40,755 nt of DNA from an uncultured cyanobacterium. GTDB lineage: Bacteria; Cyanobacteriota; Cyanobacteriia; Cyanobacteriales; FACHB-T130. How positions within the stretch are numbered: position 1 is the stretch's first letter; each line of letters starts with the position of its first letter. The notes beneath the pieces are model-generated. The model worked only from the letters and a program-made list of their open reading frames with translations, searched no databases and was not told where the DNA came from. This document shows positions 1,842-23,409 of this stretch, one piece after another. Both the position numbers and the translations under genes were made by a program. Where the stretch lies: NCBI GenBank assembly GCA_936920195.1, contig CAKZHE010000026.1:1-40755 (forward strand), read 5' to 3'.

Positions 1842-2003
1842 CATCTGTACCTCGCAGATGGATGGGAGTTTTCTATTTACCGTCGGCGGGCATTCTGACT
1901 TAGAGAAATCAATCTCTTTACAGTTGCGGGACAGCGCCGGATTTGCACCGAACTTTCCCCGTTACCTCTGGTGGGTGACTACCACCAGAACCGATTTGAT
2001 ATT
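1842..2003 (-). promoter_or_regulatory. Cobalamin (adenosylcobalamin) riboswitch
   Basis: The minus strand contains the conserved aptamer core in order: GGTGCAAATCC (1949-1939), GCTGTCCCGCAACTGTAA (1935-1918), and the B12 box AGTCAGAATGCCCGCC (1900-1885). A hairpin CATCTG..CAGATG (1842-1860), which could be the kissing-loop partner P13, closes the 3' side. The 5' side has the paired GGTGGTAG..CCACC region near 1967-1990. A TATAGT at 2015-2010 is a possible -10 box. It faces the DUF1636 operon. In this class ligand binding usually lowers expression, so the operon is probably on when B12 is scarce. Confidence 0.9.
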
Positions 2004-2046
2004 CTGCTAACTATAGCACCATTATTCCCACTGACTAGAATCGACA

Positions 2047-17267: not shown

Positions 17268-17387
17268 ATACAGTTCAGTTAACTAAGTTCGTAGTTGGGC
17301 TTCAGCCCTCTCCGGATTAGGGCTGAAGCCCAACTACGAACTTTTGCATTCTTTTATTTGCGACCATCTACTAACTGAACCGTATTG
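17268..17387. repeat. Palindromic repeat family A, copy 2, with terminal inverted repeats
   Basis: The core is two perfect 23-bp arms (17287-17309, 17319-17341) around CTCCGGATT, the same loop as copy 1. The left end is AATACAGTTCAGTTAACTAA and the right end, read inversely, is CAATACGGTTCAGTTAGTAG, so the unit has imperfect terminal inverted repeats. It is flanked by 13-bp direct repeats CACTATAAAATAA at 17256-17268 and 17388-17400, as expected of an inserted element. The right TIR gives the last codons and stop of the Eco57I-type gene. Confidence 0.85.
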
Positions 17388-18105
17388 CACTATAAAATAA
17401 ATCCTTTCCTCTTTGTTGACTTGCTTGCAGTTTTTCTTGCAAATATAGCGTTTTGCCCCTGTCAATGAAACCTTTTCGTTGCAGAAAATAAACAAACATC
17501 AGGCGGTTCAACAACACTGAAGTGTACCAACGCCTATCTGCTTCATTATCAATCCCATTGATAACCGTCAAAAACTCCCAGTGTTGCTGCTTAAATTCTT
17601 CATAAAACTTCTTCGTCACTCGCTCAATATCTAAACCAGTTTGCAGGCGTTGAGCCACATCAATTACTGACAAAGAATCTAGTTCATCAATATCAACTTT
17701 TAAAGCAATAACTTTGCTTAAAAGTAAATCGCAAGGTTCCTGTTTACTATAAACGTGGTTGCGAGGATATAATTTATTGCCATCCCGTTTTACCCAATAC
17801 CAAACGCATTGAGTTCGATTACCATCGATAAAAATCAAGACATTTTCCCGCACCAATTCCGCAATCTCTTGATAAACTGCTTCTCGCTTGGCGGCGTTGG
17901 GAATCTTGCCATCTGCTGCGGTAACTTCAAAAACCACTACCCCTGACATTTCCGCAACTTGGCGGCGATGGTAAATTTCTCCATCTACCTCCATAATTAT
18001 AGCTTTATCTGTAGGTGGAAATGACCAACCTAACTGTTGAATAAACAACTCGTTAAACTTAAACTCTTGCAGAAATTGGCGGGATTTTTCAAAATCAATA
18101 GTCAT
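17371..18105 (-). pseudogene. Eco57I/type IIG restriction-methyltransferase, N-terminal fragment
   Basis: The 244 residues match the N-terminal part of large Eco57I-type restriction-modification proteins: an N-terminal nuclease-like region (KAIIMEVDGEIYHRRQVAEMSG..VFEVTAADGK), then the helical segment RWYTSVLLNRLMFVYFLQRKGF and LYLQEKLQASQQRGKDLFYS. Full proteins exceed 1000 residues and carry the methyltransferase motif NPPY, which is absent here. The frame leaves homologous sequence at LFYS, runs into the repeat TIR as AIRFS and stops. So the methylase and target-recognition parts are gone. It is the last gene after the helicase/Uma2 row. Confidence 0.7.
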
Positions 18106-18140: not shown

Positions 18141-18707
18141 TTATTTGAAACTCAACCAGGCAAATATATCGGCGGCTGAAATCTCCCAGTTTTCTAATAC
18201 TGTTAGCACAGGCAATCTTTCAGTATTGTATTTAATCTCTGGTAACTGATTAGGTTGAAAAATCATCACTGATTTATCATCAGAATCAATCAACCAACCT
18301 AACTTCGTACCGTGTTTAATAGAGAAAAGGATTTTGTTAATTACCTTGGTAGTAGATTGATCTGGTGATAAAATCTCAATTATCCAATCTGGCGCAATTT
18401 CGACTTTATTTAAAGGATCTCCGTTGGCATCAATGGGAAGGTGCGCCCATTCAAAAACAGCAATATCTGGAACAATTGAACGGTTTGCAAAGGTACAACG
18501 CAATTCAGTAAAAGCAAAAGCTAATTTTTGAGGTCTGGCAATTTGATTTATAGCAGGTACTAAATCAGTTTGAATCATGCTATGTTTTACTTGTGGCATG
18601 GGTTTTTGATAAATCTCTCCGTCAATGTACTCGCTGGCGGGTTCGGTTTCTGGCAATGCCAAAAACTCATTTAAAGACAATTGTGATTTAGTTATTGATG
18701 CTACCAT
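18141..18707 (-). CDS. Uma2 family putative endonuclease (array copy 1)
   Basis: The 188-residue protein belongs to a close paralogue group with the next two genes: LALPETEPASEYIDGEIYQK near the start, SIVPDIAVFEW, and APDWIIEILSPDQSTTKVINKI with the catalytic-type D, E and K. It ends AADIFAWLSFK. Spacing of 35 bases to the downstream Eco57I-type gene and same strand suggest one operon. It is the most diverged of the three intact copies. Confidence 0.85.
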   Translation of the reverse strand: MVASITKSQLSLNEFLALPETEPASEYIDGEIYQKPMPQVKHSMIQTDLVPAINQIARPQKLAFAFTELRCTFANRSIVPDIAVFEWAHLPIDANGDPLNKVEIAPDWIIEILSPDQSTTKVINKILFSIKHGTKLGWLIDSDDKSVMIFQPNQLPEIKYNTERLPVLTVLENWEISAADIFAWLSFK

Positions 18708-18722
18708 GTTTTTTACCTCTGA

Positions 18723-18841
18723 TTAATCCAAAACCAAACATTGAAACAAATCATTAACTGAAAGTTGCCAATCGCCTAACACATCTAAAACTGTTAAAAT
18801 TTCATTCCCATATTTTACAACAGGAGTGCAATTAGCCGTTC
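18723..18841 (-). pseudogene. C-terminal fragment of a fourth Uma2 gene
   Basis: The minus-strand frame ending TAA at 18723-18725 reads TANCTPVVKYGNEILTVLDV then LGDWQLSVNDLFQCLVLD. This matches the last 38 residues of the Uma2 gene at 19430-19999 (CHPVVKSGDEILTTLDVLGD..FSVNDLFQCL) almost residue for residue. The N-terminal part is missing; sequence to the right is the end of the intact copy 2. It is a leftover of a tandem duplication followed by deletion or recombination. Confidence 0.85.
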
Positions 18842-18843
18842 AA

Positions 18844-19413
18844 TCATTTCTTAAACTTTAAACAACTAAATAACTGTGTGGCAGAAAATTGCCAATCAGC
18901 CAAACAAGGCAAAACTGGTAAAATCTCATCATCCGATAGGACAATAGGAGTGCAATCGCGTGCTAAAATCATCACTGATTTATCATTAGGATCGATAAAC
19001 CAACCTAATTTAGTCCCATGTTGCAGACAAAAAATAATTTTTTTAATTACTAAATTAGGTGACTGGTCAGGAGAAAGTATTTCAATTACCCAATCTGGAT
19101 GTATTTCAATTTTATTGGTAATCTCTCCATCTGCATCAACAGGAATACGCGACCATTCAAAAACCGCAATGTCGGGAACAATTGAACGTCCCCCAAATGT
19201 ACAGCGTAATTCAGGAAAAGCGCAAACTAACTCTTGGGGTTCTCCTGCTTGGGAAATTACCTCTAAGGAATATTTTTGCAACCGACTGTGTTTTGCTTGA
19301 GGCATAGATTTTTGGTAAATTTCTCCATCAATGTACTCGCTAGCGGGTTTAGTTTCTGGTAATTGCAAAAACTCAGCTAAAGACATCTGCGATTTAGTTG
19401 TTAATGGCACCAT
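18844..19413 (-). CDS. Uma2 family putative endonuclease (array copy 2)
   Basis: The protein is 189 residues: LQLPETKPASEYIDGEIYQK, RSIVPDIAVFEWSRIPVDAD, HPDWVIEILSPDQSPNLVIK and GTKLGWFIDPNDKSVMIL. All three nuclease-fold acidic/basic positions appear conserved. It lies 16 bases after the stop of copy 3 on the same strand. Compared with copy 3 its C-terminus ends FSCLKFKK rather than QCLYLT, consistent with exchange between copies. Confidence 0.85.
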   Translation of the reverse strand: MVPLTTKSQMSLAEFLQLPETKPASEYIDGEIYQKSMPQAKHSRLQKYSLEVISQAGEPQELVCAFPELRCTFGGRSIVPDIAVFEWSRIPVDADGEITNKIEIHPDWVIEILSPDQSPNLVIKKIIFCLQHGTKLGWFIDPNDKSVMILARDCTPIVLSDDEILPVLPCLADWQFSATQLFSCLKFKK

Positions 19414-19429
19414 ATCCGATACCTCCGAA

Positions 19430-19999
19430 TTAAGTTAAATACAAACATTGAAATAAATCATTAACCGAAAATTGCCAATCTCCTAATACATCTAAAGTTG
19501 TTAAAATCTCATCACCTGATTTTACAACAGGGTGGCAATTAGGGGCAAAAATAGTTACAGATTCATTATCAGGATCGAGAAACCAACCTAATTTTGTCCC
19601 CTTATTTAAACAAAAGGTTATTTTCTTAATTACCCGACTAGCAGATTGTCCAGGAGAGAGAATCTCGATTGTCCAATCTGGGGCAATTTCAAAGCGATTA
19701 GCGATTCTGCCACTAGCTAAACGAGGAATGCGCGACCATTCAAAAACTGCAATATCGGGAACAACTGAACCACCGCCAAAACTGCAACGTAATTCAGGAA
19801 AAGCATAAGCTAATTTTTGAGGTTCACCAACTTGATTAATTTTAGTTGCTAAACGGATTTGTAAAATGCTGTGTTCTCCTTGGGGCATAGGTTTTTGGTA
19901 AATTTCTCCGTCAATGTATTCGCTAGCAGGTTCGGTTTCTGGTAATTGCAAAAACTCTTCTAATGAAACTTTCTGAGATTGAGATGATTGAACAATCAT
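19430..19999 (-). CDS. Uma2 family putative endonuclease (array copy 3)
   Basis: ATG at 19999 (MIVQSSQSQKVSLEEFLQLP) with AGGA 8 bases upstream is chosen over the 25-residue longer frame. The remaining 189 residues are Uma2: SVVPDIAVFEWSRIP, APDWTIEILSPGQSASRVIKKI and GTKLGWFLDPDNESVTIF. The ATG overlaps the TGA that would end the helicase frame if its internal TAG were read through, so originally the two genes were translationally coupled. Confidence 0.85.
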   Translation of the reverse strand: MIVQSSQSQKVSLEEFLQLPETEPASEYIDGEIYQKPMPQGEHSILQIRLATKINQVGEPQKLAYAFPELRCSFGGGSVVPDIAVFEWSRIPRLASGRIANRFEIAPDWTIEILSPGQSASRVIKKITFCLNKGTKLGWFLDPDNESVTIFAPNCHPVVKSGDEILTTLDVLGDWQFSVNDLFQCLYLT

Positions 20000-20127
20000 A
20001 AATTTTCCTGAAATAAACCTAAAGAACAAATAATCTGCGGTTCGCGCTTTTCCGCCTCTTCGCTGACAATACACAAACGCTCGTCCATCCGCAAAGCTAC
20101 AACTAATTCTGCTAATTGGCGATAGCG

Positions 20128-23100
20128 CTAGCGCGCTCGCAGAGCTTCGCTAATGCCACTTTTTAATTGACGGTTGATACTATCAACTGCTGATTGTCGT
20201 AAGGGATAGCGGTAAATTTCGTCAATTGCTTTTAATAATTCTTCAGATACAAAGATGCTCCCCTTCATTTCTTGAGCATAACATTTTAGCCGTTCGTAGG
20301 TGCGAAATCTAGCTCCAGAACGCCGCCCTAATTGCCCGCCAGCGCTCTTTTCTTCTTCTGCAATCAGGGCTGCGCCTTTTTTGACTAATTCATGGTGCTG
20401 CGCGTCTCTAGGCATGGCAGGCGTTGCTGCTTCGCACGCCGCCGCTCGTAACACTGCTAATTGGGATTGAGTGACGCTATTTCCATTCCGGTCTACCCAT
20501 ACTAGCGCATCATTGCCGACCGTAGTTTTCATATACAATAATACCCCTTCTGGTTGCAAAGGAATGGGAGTATGAGCGCGAGTAGAATAAACCACTTTTG
20601 GCATATCTTCAATGGTTTTTTTCAAGGTAGGATTGCCATCAGTAGCATTTTTCCAAATTTGAAAAGCTTCTGATGTCAAATCTACCTCTGTATCTTCGTC
20701 GCCATCTAAAATTCCCGATTTTTCGTTGTAGAGATTAAGCAACACCTGAGCAGAATCATCTTCAAAAAACCTTTCATCTGTACCGACAACTTCCGCATTT
20801 TCTTGCAATCGTTGCTGAAGGCGCGATCGCAAATTAATAATCCTTTCTACTCCCTCCGCTGGCAGGAAAGAATAGCAGAGAATTTTTTCGGCTTGCTGTC
20901 CAATTCTATCTACCCGTCCTGCCCGTTGAATTAAGCGAATAATTGCCCAAGGTAAGTCATAATTGACAATGATCGCGCAATCTTGTAAATTGTGACCTTC
21001 ACTTAAAACATCAGTCGCCACTAAAACTCGTAATTCTTCTTTAGCTGATACTTTATCTCGTTTATTATTACTAACTGGACTAAATTTCCCCGCTAGTTCC
21101 GTAGGATCTTTATCTCGACCAGTTACTCCGGCGACATTCGCAATTTTTCTGGCAGCTAAATTGTCAGCTAAATAACGGACTGTATCGGCAAACTGAGTAA
21201 AAATCAAGATCTTTTCGTCGGGATGAACTTTAGCAATTAAATTAACTAATGCTGCCAACTTTCGATCTTGCTCTGGTTGCCACTCGCCACAGTTTTGTAA
21301 GATCCTAATTAATGCTTTGGCATCAGCTAATAAATCCCGCTTAAGCGCCTTCAGATTGAATAGGGTAGCGCGCAGCCACTTAAAGCGCTTTTGATAGCGA
21401 GTTTGATACTGTTGATAAACCAACTTGGCTCGTTGGCGAAAAACATTTTCTGCCTGCAATTTTTGTTCTTCAATCTCGCCAATAGCTTCATCGCCATCTT
21501 CGACTTCAAAATCAAATAATGTCGTTGCGATCGAATCGGGGTCTTCATCATTATTACTGGGATCTAATAACTCTGCCTCTTGGGTGCCAATAGGAATATC
21601 TAGCCCATTTTCAATAGCATATAAATAAATAAAATTTCGCAAGGTATGGCGTTCAAGCGATCGCATAAAAGCTAAACCACTGCTTTCTAAACGTTTAAAG
21701 ATATTCGTGCGCGAAAATCCCATTAATCGCCGTCCGCCTCGAAACAAACTTTTTAATTGCCGTTGTTCAGCTTCAGTAGATACTGGCTTTGTAGAGATGT
21801 AATCGCCCAACCCGTAACGCGGTAAATTAAGCTGGTTAATTACTTCTACTACCGACTCAGAATAAAGCTGAGAATAGGCATCAATATTAGGACTATTCCA
21901 ACTAAATTTAACCGTTTTAGGTAGGGGTTCTGGAAAATAGGATTTGCCCCCATCTGTGAATTCTAAATATTTTCGACCAATCCCATCGCTGTCAGCATAA
22001 TTATCTTTAATAAACGAGCGAGTCCGCCGCACCATGTAGCGCTTCATCAACTCTCGCCAATCGTCGGGATGCTCGCTTTTTTCAAAAGCCGCGAGCGATC
22101 GCACCGCACATTGATATTTTCTAATAAACTCTAATTCTCCATTTCCTCCTTTTCCCAATTCATTAATTAACCCTTCTGGTCTAACACCTAAATCCTGGTC
22201 TTCTGGCACAAACAACCGCAATTGAGCCGAAAGATCGAGATAAGTTTTGTTGTAAGGAGTAGCTGATAGCAAAATACATTTACTTTCGTTAGTCGCAATA
22301 TATTCTTGAATCGCTCTATATCTTTTCCCATCTCGATTTCGCAAGTTATGACTTTCATCGATCAACACAATCCGGTAGCGGCGTAAATCTGGTAATTTAC
22401 TCTGCACTTGACTAATTGGCAACACCTTGGCATATAGACGGTAATTGTCTACATATTCTTGCCACATTTTAACTAAATTTTTAGGACAGATAATCAGAGT
22501 TTCTAATAAACAATCTTCTTGCAAAATCTTCGCTAGTGCCGTGCCAACTAGGGTTTTCCCTAATCCCACCACATCACCGACTAAAACCCCGCCTCTCCTC
22601 GTTACATGACGCGCCGCTAATTGCACTGCCGCTTTTTGAAACTCAAACAAATTGTTGAATTCGCGAGGAATGCGGAATTCTGATAAACCAGCGATCGCTT
22701 CATGGGACAAATGGTAAGCAATCTTTAAATATATATGATACGGTGGAATTAATTCTGCTCTTGCCCAACTTTCATCTATCAGTACCGCCAGTTCTTTAGA
22801 AATATCTACACAACCGTAATCTTGCCAGCGATCGTTAAACCACTTCTGCAATTTTTCACAAGCATCGTGGTCTAAAATATCCACATTCAATTCACCTTGT
22901 TTTGCTAGTCCTGGTAAGGTTAAATTACTACTGCCCAAAAACCCTACCGTAGGAATATTAGGATCTTGGCGGTGGATTAAATATAACTTGGCATGAAGAG
23001 GATGCCGCAGAAACAATTTAATTATGACTTTCTGAGTTTTTAATTGATGGCTTAACCGCCTCAATCCGGCTTCATCTTGATTCGTGGGCGCACCGATAAT

Positions 23101-23409
23101 AAGTTGTTGGCGAAATTCAGCCGCAATTCGCTTTTTCCAGCGGAGAATAGCACTGTTATCAATACCTGGTTCCCCACTACCAAGAGAGAAGGCGGCATAA
23201 ACTTCATCGCTAGGTAAACTTTGCATTCCCACCAATAAACGGCAGCAAGCACTTTCTCCCCCCACATATTGCTCAATTATGCCATCAATTTTTCGCCAAC
23301 CTCTCAGATTGAAATAACCAACGCAAAAATCAGCCCGATAAGAAACTTGCAGGGTTTCTCGTAACGTCGGGAGTAGAGATAAATCAATGTTGTCAAAAAT
23401 GCGCGGCAC
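20128..23409 (-). CDS. PLD-nuclease/SNF2-type helicase, C-terminus cut by in-frame TAG
   Basis: GTG start with AAGGA 8-9 bases upstream. The N-terminal domain is phospholipase-D-like (HPLHAKLYLIH at about residue 135, then GSSNLT about 158), a single HxK site. The helicase follows: Walker A GDVVGLGKTLVGTAL (about 278), DESHN (about 352), LSATPYNKTYLDL (about 382), then helicase C with FTQFADTVRYLADNL (about 740), ATDVLSEGHNLQ and QRAGRVDRIGQ. Such PLD-SNF2 proteins accompany Eco57I-type or DISARM-type restriction genes. The frame stops at TAG 20130-20128 but stays open for 43 more codons (to TGA 19998-19996), and those codons read RQLAELVVALRMDERLC and EPQIICSLGL, resembling a real C-terminus. 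Confidence 0.85.
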   Translation of the reverse strand: MPRIFDNIDLSLLPTLRETLQVSYRADFCVGYFNLRGWRKIDGIIEQYVGGESACCRLLVGMQSLPSDEVYAAFSLGSGEPGIDNSAILRWKKRIAAEFRQQLIIGAPTNQDEAGLRRLSHQLKTQKVIIKLFLRHPLHAKLYLIHRQDPNIPTVGFLGSSNLTLPGLAKQGELNVDILDHDACEKLQKWFNDRWQDYGCVDISKELAVLIDESWARAELIPPYHIYLKIAYHLSHEAIAGLSEFRIPREFNNLFEFQKAAVQLAARHVTRRGGVLVGDVVGLGKTLVGTALAKILQEDCLLETLIICPKNLVKMWQEYVDNYRLYAKVLPISQVQSKLPDLRRYRIVLIDESHNLRNRDGKRYRAIQEYIATNESKCILLSATPYNKTYLDLSAQLRLFVPEDQDLGVRPEGLINELGKGGNGELEFIRKYQCAVRSLAAFEKSEHPDDWRELMKRYMVRRTRSFIKDNYADSDGIGRKYLEFTDGGKSYFPEPLPKTVKFSWNSPNIDAYSQLYSESVVEVINQLNLPRYGLGDYISTKPVSTEAEQRQLKSLFRGGRRLMGFSRTNIFKRLESSGLAFMRSLERHTLRNFIYLYAIENGLDIPIGTQEAELLDPSNNDEDPDSIATTLFDFEVEDGDEAIGEIEEQKLQAENVFRQRAKLVYQQYQTRYQKRFKWLRATLFNLKALKRDLLADAKALIRILQNCGEWQPEQDRKLAALVNLIAKVHPDEKILIFTQFADTVRYLADNLAARKIANVAGVTGRDKDPTELAGKFSPVSNNKRDKVSAKEELRVLVATDVLSEGHNLQDCAIIVNYDLPWAIIRLIQRAGRVDRIGQQAEKILCYSFLPAEGVERIINLRSRLQQRLQENAEVVGTDERFFEDDSAQVLLNLYNEKSGILDGDEDTEVDLTSEAFQIWKNATDGNPTLKKTIEDMPKVVYSTRAHTPIPLQPEGVLLYMKTTVGNDALVWVDRNGNSVTQSQLAVLRAAACEAATPAMPRDAQHHELVKKGAALIAEEEKSAGGQLGRRSGARFRTYERLKCYAQEMKGSIFVSEELLKAIDEIYRYPLRQSAVDSINRQLKSGISEALRAR

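Follow-up and report, generated by a model that had tools for sequence, protein, structure and literature searches.

The stop codon and the 24-nt element

The DNA analysed here (the window) is a stretch of 40,755 nt from an uncultured cyanobacterium. In it, a very small dispersed repeat of 24 nt has almost certainly been inserted near the 3' end of a PLD-SNF2 helicase gene, into a HIP1 octamer read in frame xGC GAT CGC, bringing a stop codon with it. The features concerned, all on the minus strand, are listed below. Genomes, contigs, loci and families are designated by G, C, L and f numbers.

20131-23409, minus strand: truncated helicase ORF of 1093 codons, with a PLD-like N-terminal domain and SNF2-type helicase domains (Pfam, PADLOC HKD+Snf2, homologues)
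20119-20150, minus strand: filled HIP1 site of 32 nt, GCG + 24-nt element + ATCGC (sequence, genome searches)
20124-20147, minus strand: 24-nt SDR5-like element AAGCTCTGCGAGCGCGCTAGCGCT, an in-frame insert of eight codons (absent from 10 tail-aligned homologues; repeated in the genome)
20128-20130, minus strand: TAG stop that comes from the element when read in this register (element forward; HIP1 as xGC GAT CGC)
19996-20127, minus strand: cut-off C-terminal tail of 43 sense codons plus TGA, with a conserved ..IICSLGL.. region (sequence, homologues, codon comparison)
19430-19999, minus strand: Uma2 gene, its ATG overlapping the original helicase stop (Pfam PF05685; sequence)

An earlier note on this DNA had reported the in-frame TAG at 20130-20128, an open frame of 43 codons past it (20127-19999), and a TGA (19998-19996) overlapping the Uma2 ATG (19999-19997) as ATGA. 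The sequence bore out all three. The note had also placed the stop in a palindromic insert. A palindromic 16-mer, GCGAGCGCGCTAGCGC, was indeed found at 20140-20125; the real inserted unit was 24 nt long, at about 20147-20124.

The element was flanked by GCG (20150-20148) and ATCGC (20123-20119). Joined together, these flanks gave ATTAGCGATCGCCAATT, a HIP1 octamer, and the element thus lay between bases 3 and 4 of this cyanobacterial octamer (GCGATCGC). The boundary was ambiguous by one base because an A is common to both ends, so that the insertion point may be 3/4 or 4/5 of HIP1. HIP1 occurred 7,813 times in the genome, against 111 for the reversed control. The consensus of the element with its half-sites was GCG-AAGC(T/C)CTGCG(A/T)GCGCGCT(A/T/G)GCGCT-ATCGC, and it was the CTAGCG within the element itself that supplied the helicase stop in this register. 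The element was likened to SDR5 by its behaviour and named SDR5-like on that account.

Copies in the same genome

The genome is a draft of 326 contigs. A search with a 22-mer (up to 2 mismatches) gave 43 matches at 40 distinct places, 3 of which were matched on both strands, and a search with the 32-base filled site (up to 3 mismatches) gave 42 copies. The reversed controls gave 0 in both cases, and the repeat is therefore far beyond chance. Fourteen of the 42 copies were identical letter for letter over all 32 bases. Exact HIP1 half-sites were present in 36 of the 42, in a search that itself favours such copies.

The 16-mer core was unspecific at up to 2 mismatches (104 matches, against 66 for the control), and only its exact places were used. 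With the flanks unconstrained, 17 such places were found. When their flanks were joined, 14 of the 17 gave GCGATCGC and the other 3 a one-base variant. The sequence outside HIP1 differed among the 17 contexts, save for a few duplicated regions.

Filled and empty sites

For genome G048, seven of its 23 element sites were taken, their flanks joined, and the joined sequences searched in five genomes of the same genus, counting only alignments that crossed the site. Among 18 such alignments, 11 showed an exact GCGATCGC at the site and 3 a one-base variant; 1 was filled in both genomes, and 3 were uninformative or had no HIP1. One of the empty sites was an exact GCGATCGC in DNA that was 97.5% identical.

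The same approach was applied to 22 joined gene stretches of the window's own genome against eight relatives. Large protein families dominated here, and four of the 22 aligned with the 30 loci fetched among the matches listed. This gave 33 site-crossing rows, in which some genes are counted twice, and all rows were ungapped at the site. HIP1 lay exactly at the site in two rows (L204 and L211); L204, from the same family, is a homologue of a different gene that carries the element, and has GCGATCGC exactly at the site.

At the helicase site itself, the G046 homologue (L033, 80%) had ATTAGCGATCGACAATT, with the core GCGATCGA, and the G007 homologue (83%, the closest among the matches listed) had ATTAGTAACCAACAA, with no HIP1. 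A perfect HIP1 was found at this site in none of the 10 tail-aligned homologues. The empty HIP1 sites at other loci in relatives and the repeated occurrence in HIP1 sites show that this is insertion rather than chance similarity.

Distribution of the element

Among 388 genomes of the order, the element (up to 2 mismatches) was restricted to families f1, f17 and f21 and present in 10 genomes: the window's own (36 copies), seven of f17, with between 1 and 43 copies each, and two of f21, with 3 and 5 copies. At the same threshold it was absent from five other genomes of its own family. When named genome contigs were scanned, a single one matched exactly, from an uncultured Aliterella MAG (f17; the same contig as in G247).

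Plasmid and viral records were also searched. Of 105 plasmid records that matched at E up to 10, only pCRI9333.03 of Crinalium epipsammum PCC 9333 (which matches G051, family f21) covered most of the element and so carried a copy; the remaining plasmid records among the matches listed were all from Agrobacterium, partial, with E of 0.2. Among phage records, 50,697 in all, none matched at E 0.1, and the exact element pattern was not found in viral contigs.

A different 15-nt module, GCGWAGCCCGCCGYAGGCATCGC, was found between GCG and ATCGC in 11 of 148 genomes, at 17 places in all (L119, L120, L121, L122), and was absent from the window's genome in the same search. It is perhaps another HIP1-inserted repeat. 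A HIP1-flanked module of this type is common in Nostoc. A search for any HIP1-inserted dispersed module in 676 kb of three genomes (276 kb from two of f33 and 400 kb from one of f2) found none. The sole cluster there, with nine members at length 27 and four at length 18, was rejected as a dispersed repeat, its motif being confined to 7 regularly spaced places in one 20-kb stretch.

The helicase and its lost tail

Homologues of the helicase were searched for in 60 genomes, its own included. Near-full-length homologues in a single alignment (56-83% identity) were found in at least 10 other genomes. In G038 and G044 the homologues were in pieces, and fragments and more distant helicases were also among the matches listed. 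Five genomes of the same family gave only weak matches (E 1e-14 to 1e-5), and the best homologues, among the matches listed, were in other families; together these suggest that the helicase gene was gained horizontally.

The C-terminal region was compared by local tblastn with 17 loci. These comprised the window, 10 loci that aligned over the whole tail, one cut by the end of the locus (L043), and five without a match (L042 and L044, in pieces, and L045-L047, distant helicases). The 10 aligned homologues were 37-82% identical, and each was without exactly eight residues, ALRAR*RY, that is, without exactly these 24 bp. The window therefore carries a 24-bp in-frame insertion, an insert being one of the options in the earlier note. 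All 10 tails in this alignment, which the note had proposed, read through the position of the stop, and none of the homologues ended there naturally.

The codons past the TAG, which had been called conserved-looking, were found to be conserved. An ICSLGL-like motif was present near the end of all 10 homologues (VCSLGLF in L037, ICSMEIF in L040). In the codon comparison, the tail differed from that of L033 by 2.5 nonsynonymous and 15.5 synonymous changes (38 codons), from L032 by 8.5 and 18.5 (39 codons), and from L034 by 17 and 20 (39 codons). The conserved tail would fit a recent insertion. The synonymous divergence from the nearest homologues was near saturation (dS about 2.4), so that the insertion cannot be dated well. 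Of the "recent inactivating insert" of the earlier note, the insert thus stands, recency is drawn from the conserved tail, and inactivation is likely from the sequence comparison.

Translation would be expected to end at the TAG, giving a protein without the conserved tail that is probably inactive or impaired; on balance we expect impairment from the loss of the tail. An alternative is a tolerated truncation, with the protein of 1093 residues remaining functional although the final 43 are missing. No Pfam helicase match extends past residue 837, well short of the stop, which would be in keeping with a dispensable tail. On the other hand, the tail is kept in the 10 tail-aligned homologues down to 37% identity, and its changes are mostly synonymous. 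We therefore consider tolerated truncation unlikely, although it retains appreciable weight beside an impaired protein.

The helicase resembled HKD+Snf2 and DrmD-like defence helicases (PADLOC), below every curated cut-off listed. Against the phospholipase D-like anti-phage protein NF042964 it scored 163.6 bits (cut-off 1100), and is thus related to that protein, not a member of it.

The Uma2 gene behind the helicase has AGGA a few bases 5' of its ATG (sequence, by eye). With this kept upstream of its start, Uma2 need not depend on translational coupling and would still be translated from its own ribosome-binding site.

Three Uma2 genes stand in tandem directly behind the helicase (18141-19999, minus strand). 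A gene with a Uma2-like start (by eye) also follows the helicase in three of the 10 homologous loci (L032, L034 and L037). An ORF of 244 residues at 17371-18105 matched positions 1-241 of a restriction-methylation profile of type IIG (length 1100). The neighbourhood looks like a decaying defence island. Elsewhere in the window, a Y1 transposase fragment (Pfam PF01797) was seen near the start (141-374) and a cobalamin riboswitch (Rfam RF00174) at 1868-2010 (minus strand).

Hairpin and mode of movement

The hairpin predicted for the element was no more stable than those of shuffled sequences (z -0.55 to 0.40, six sequences). Its two arms were paired in 92.7% of cells, against at most 56% with the partner slid, and this again was no more than in the shuffles. 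Among 50 distinct copies, no pair was altered on both sides. The hairpin as a selected structure was thus unsupported by folding z-scores or covariation, and was set aside.

In the preferred reading, the element would have moved into HIP1 as an SDR5-type mobile element, probably recently. As a guess, movement may involve HIP1-directed cutting and capture of a hairpin, from RNA or single-stranded DNA. It might instead be an element of the REP/RAYT type that depends on a Y1 (HUH) transposase for its movement, a reading that would suit the hairpin shape, the site-specific insertion and the target duplication of at most one base, as well as the 10 Y1_Tnp matches, fragments included, in the same genome. 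However, G205, with 45 copies, had one Y1 match only, short and with an internal stop, and G247 (20 copies; 65% complete) had none. This absence is weak evidence, since copies could outlive their mover. Of the 16 genomes examined for Y1, 14 had matches, among them genomes that carry the element and genomes that do not. We consider a Y1-moved element improbable beside the SDR5-type one.

Registers of the element in coding sequences

The element is eight codons long, and in 40 of the 42 copies of its own genome it had TAG at positions 21-23. Two of the six registers of this form contain a stop and the other four are open. In G048 and G205 together, 63 of 68 copies were TTG or TGG variants, in which one register of six contains a stop. 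The peptide encoded differs with the register.

With the element removed, 25 of the 42 copies lay in ORFs of at least 200 codons. In 24 of these the element added eight sense codons, and in one (the helicase) it gave a stop. Random insertion would be expected to give a stop in 27%, as estimated from 155 HIP1 sites in long ORFs (71, 56 and 28 in the three phases), and stops were fewer than this (1/25, p=0.004). A cut of 250 codons gave 1/21 (p=0.012) and one of 150 codons 4/28 (p=0.09).

Of the three extra stop cases at 150 codons, L004 and L014 were unconfirmed ORFs and L009 (G000:C141, 1186-1827) was a real gene, a Uma2 gene split by the TAG of an element in the same register as in the helicase, its halves matching profile positions 2-69 and 68-171. 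The depletion of stop registers among intragenic copies is suggestive only, because the p value depends on the ORF cut and because L009 is a real gene. In the other two genomes, stops were found in 0/11 (G048) and 0/16 (G205) of the ORFs of at least 150 codons; the variants there are rarely able to give one.

Only one other copy was in the register of the helicase within an ORF of at least 200 codons. This was L145 (G000:C290, 843-2393), a PAS histidine kinase, in which CAG replaced TAG (position 21). Only one more copy in the genome, L146, in another register, was without TAG.

These results bear on readthrough, an option of the earlier note, taken here as functional reading or recoding of the TAG that would give a full-length helicase with eight extra residues. 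The open and conserved frame downstream speaks for readthrough, but a recent insertion accounts for the conserved tail equally well. Efficient reading of TAG would not lead one to expect the depletion of stop registers, dependent as this is on the ORF cut, and L145 has CAG in its place. Readthrough appears very improbable. The remaining option of that note was a sequencing error. Such an error, or one of assembly, with the stop or insert absent from the organism, is hardly credible even in a draft genome: the insert agrees exactly with a repeat that has 14 identical copies of 32 bases, 32 bases are short for a read, and in homologues the two flanks are parts of a single gene, so that no false join of two loci is needed.

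When 20 of the 27 ORFs of at least 150 codons that carry copies were searched against Pfam, a domain was found in 17. This indicated that many copies are carried in real genes. The insert lay inside the matched stretch in at least six ORFs:

L005:1011-1937 (G000:C97): D12 adenine methyltransferase, insert inside the domain (Pfam)
L030: HATPase_c domain, insert inside the match (Pfam)
L145: PAS domain, insert inside the match (Pfam)
L015: AMP-binding enzyme, insert inside the match (Pfam)
L017: acetyltransferase, insert inside the match (Pfam)
L151: EAL domain, insert inside the match (Pfam)

The D12 class of adenine methyltransferases includes GATC methylases. GATC is the core of HIP1, the target of the element, and the D12 methyltransferase of L005 itself carries an in-frame copy. 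A gene for a chorismate-binding enzyme (L008:350-1810; G000:C121) carries two in-frame copies in opposite orientations, both upstream of the domain.

A broader interpretation, plausible though not favoured, is that the element is a coding-compatible mobile cassette. With a length of eight codons and a stop-free reading in four of the six registers (in five for the T and G variants), it would spread mostly as in-frame insertions of eight residues in ordinary genes, conserved domains included, while selection removes the stop registers. If this is true, the element would rank with the smallest of the mobile elements from which proteins are known to gain a peptide, and the helicase would show the cost of the wrong register.

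What appeared to be an oddity of a stop codon thus becomes an example of a filled site, for a kind of mobile element that is among the smallest. The element is found in frame inside genes of known domains (a DNA methyltransferase, histidine kinases, an AMP-binding enzyme and an acetyltransferase), and in the wrong register it can end a gene. Whether stop registers are depleted can be tested by counting across whole genomes. Annotators of such cyanobacterial proteins should note that a short in-frame segment resembling xDSASALAELR, xEALRARxRYR or xRSSASALALS may be a mobile element.

Comparison with known systems

SDR families of 21-27 nt were reportedly described by Elhai et al. (2008) in Nostoc punctiforme and its relatives, with a structure backed by compensatory changes. 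The element resembles these in its small size (24 nt, within that range) and in its dispersed copies. It may differ in its hairpin, where no compensatory changes were seen, and in its occurrence, in families f1, f17 and f21 among the 388 genomes of the order, SDR5 being reported from the Nostoc group.

In the literature searched, to which Elhai et al. (2008) did not belong and in which whole-word matching weakened the search, no description of in-frame carriage of HIP1 elements was found. The small mobile repeat is itself of a kind already known; its in-frame carriage in other genes is the newest part of the finding.

SDR5 is inserted precisely inside HIP1 after the third base (PMC4390886). 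Insertion between nucleotides 3 and 4 of HIP1 is common to SDR5 as so described and to the present element, in which 14 of the 17 flank-free cores had it and 3 were one base off.

REPINs and REP sequences with RAYT transposases are short hairpin repeats spread without a gene of their own (PMC3116915). The element is likewise a short hairpin repeat dispersed through the genome without its own gene. It differs from them in having HIP1 as its target and in that G205, the genome with most copies (45), was without an intact Y1 transposase match.

The Rickettsia palindromic elements (RPE) are described as mobile repeats of about 150 bp and several families that lie in frame in protein-coding genes (PMC10969869). 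In-frame insertion in protein-coding genes is a property that the 24-nt element has in common with them. On the other hand, RPE are about 150 bp long, belong to Rickettsia and encode a conserved peptide, whereas the present element is 24 bp long, is inserted at HIP1 and encodes a peptide that depends on the register.
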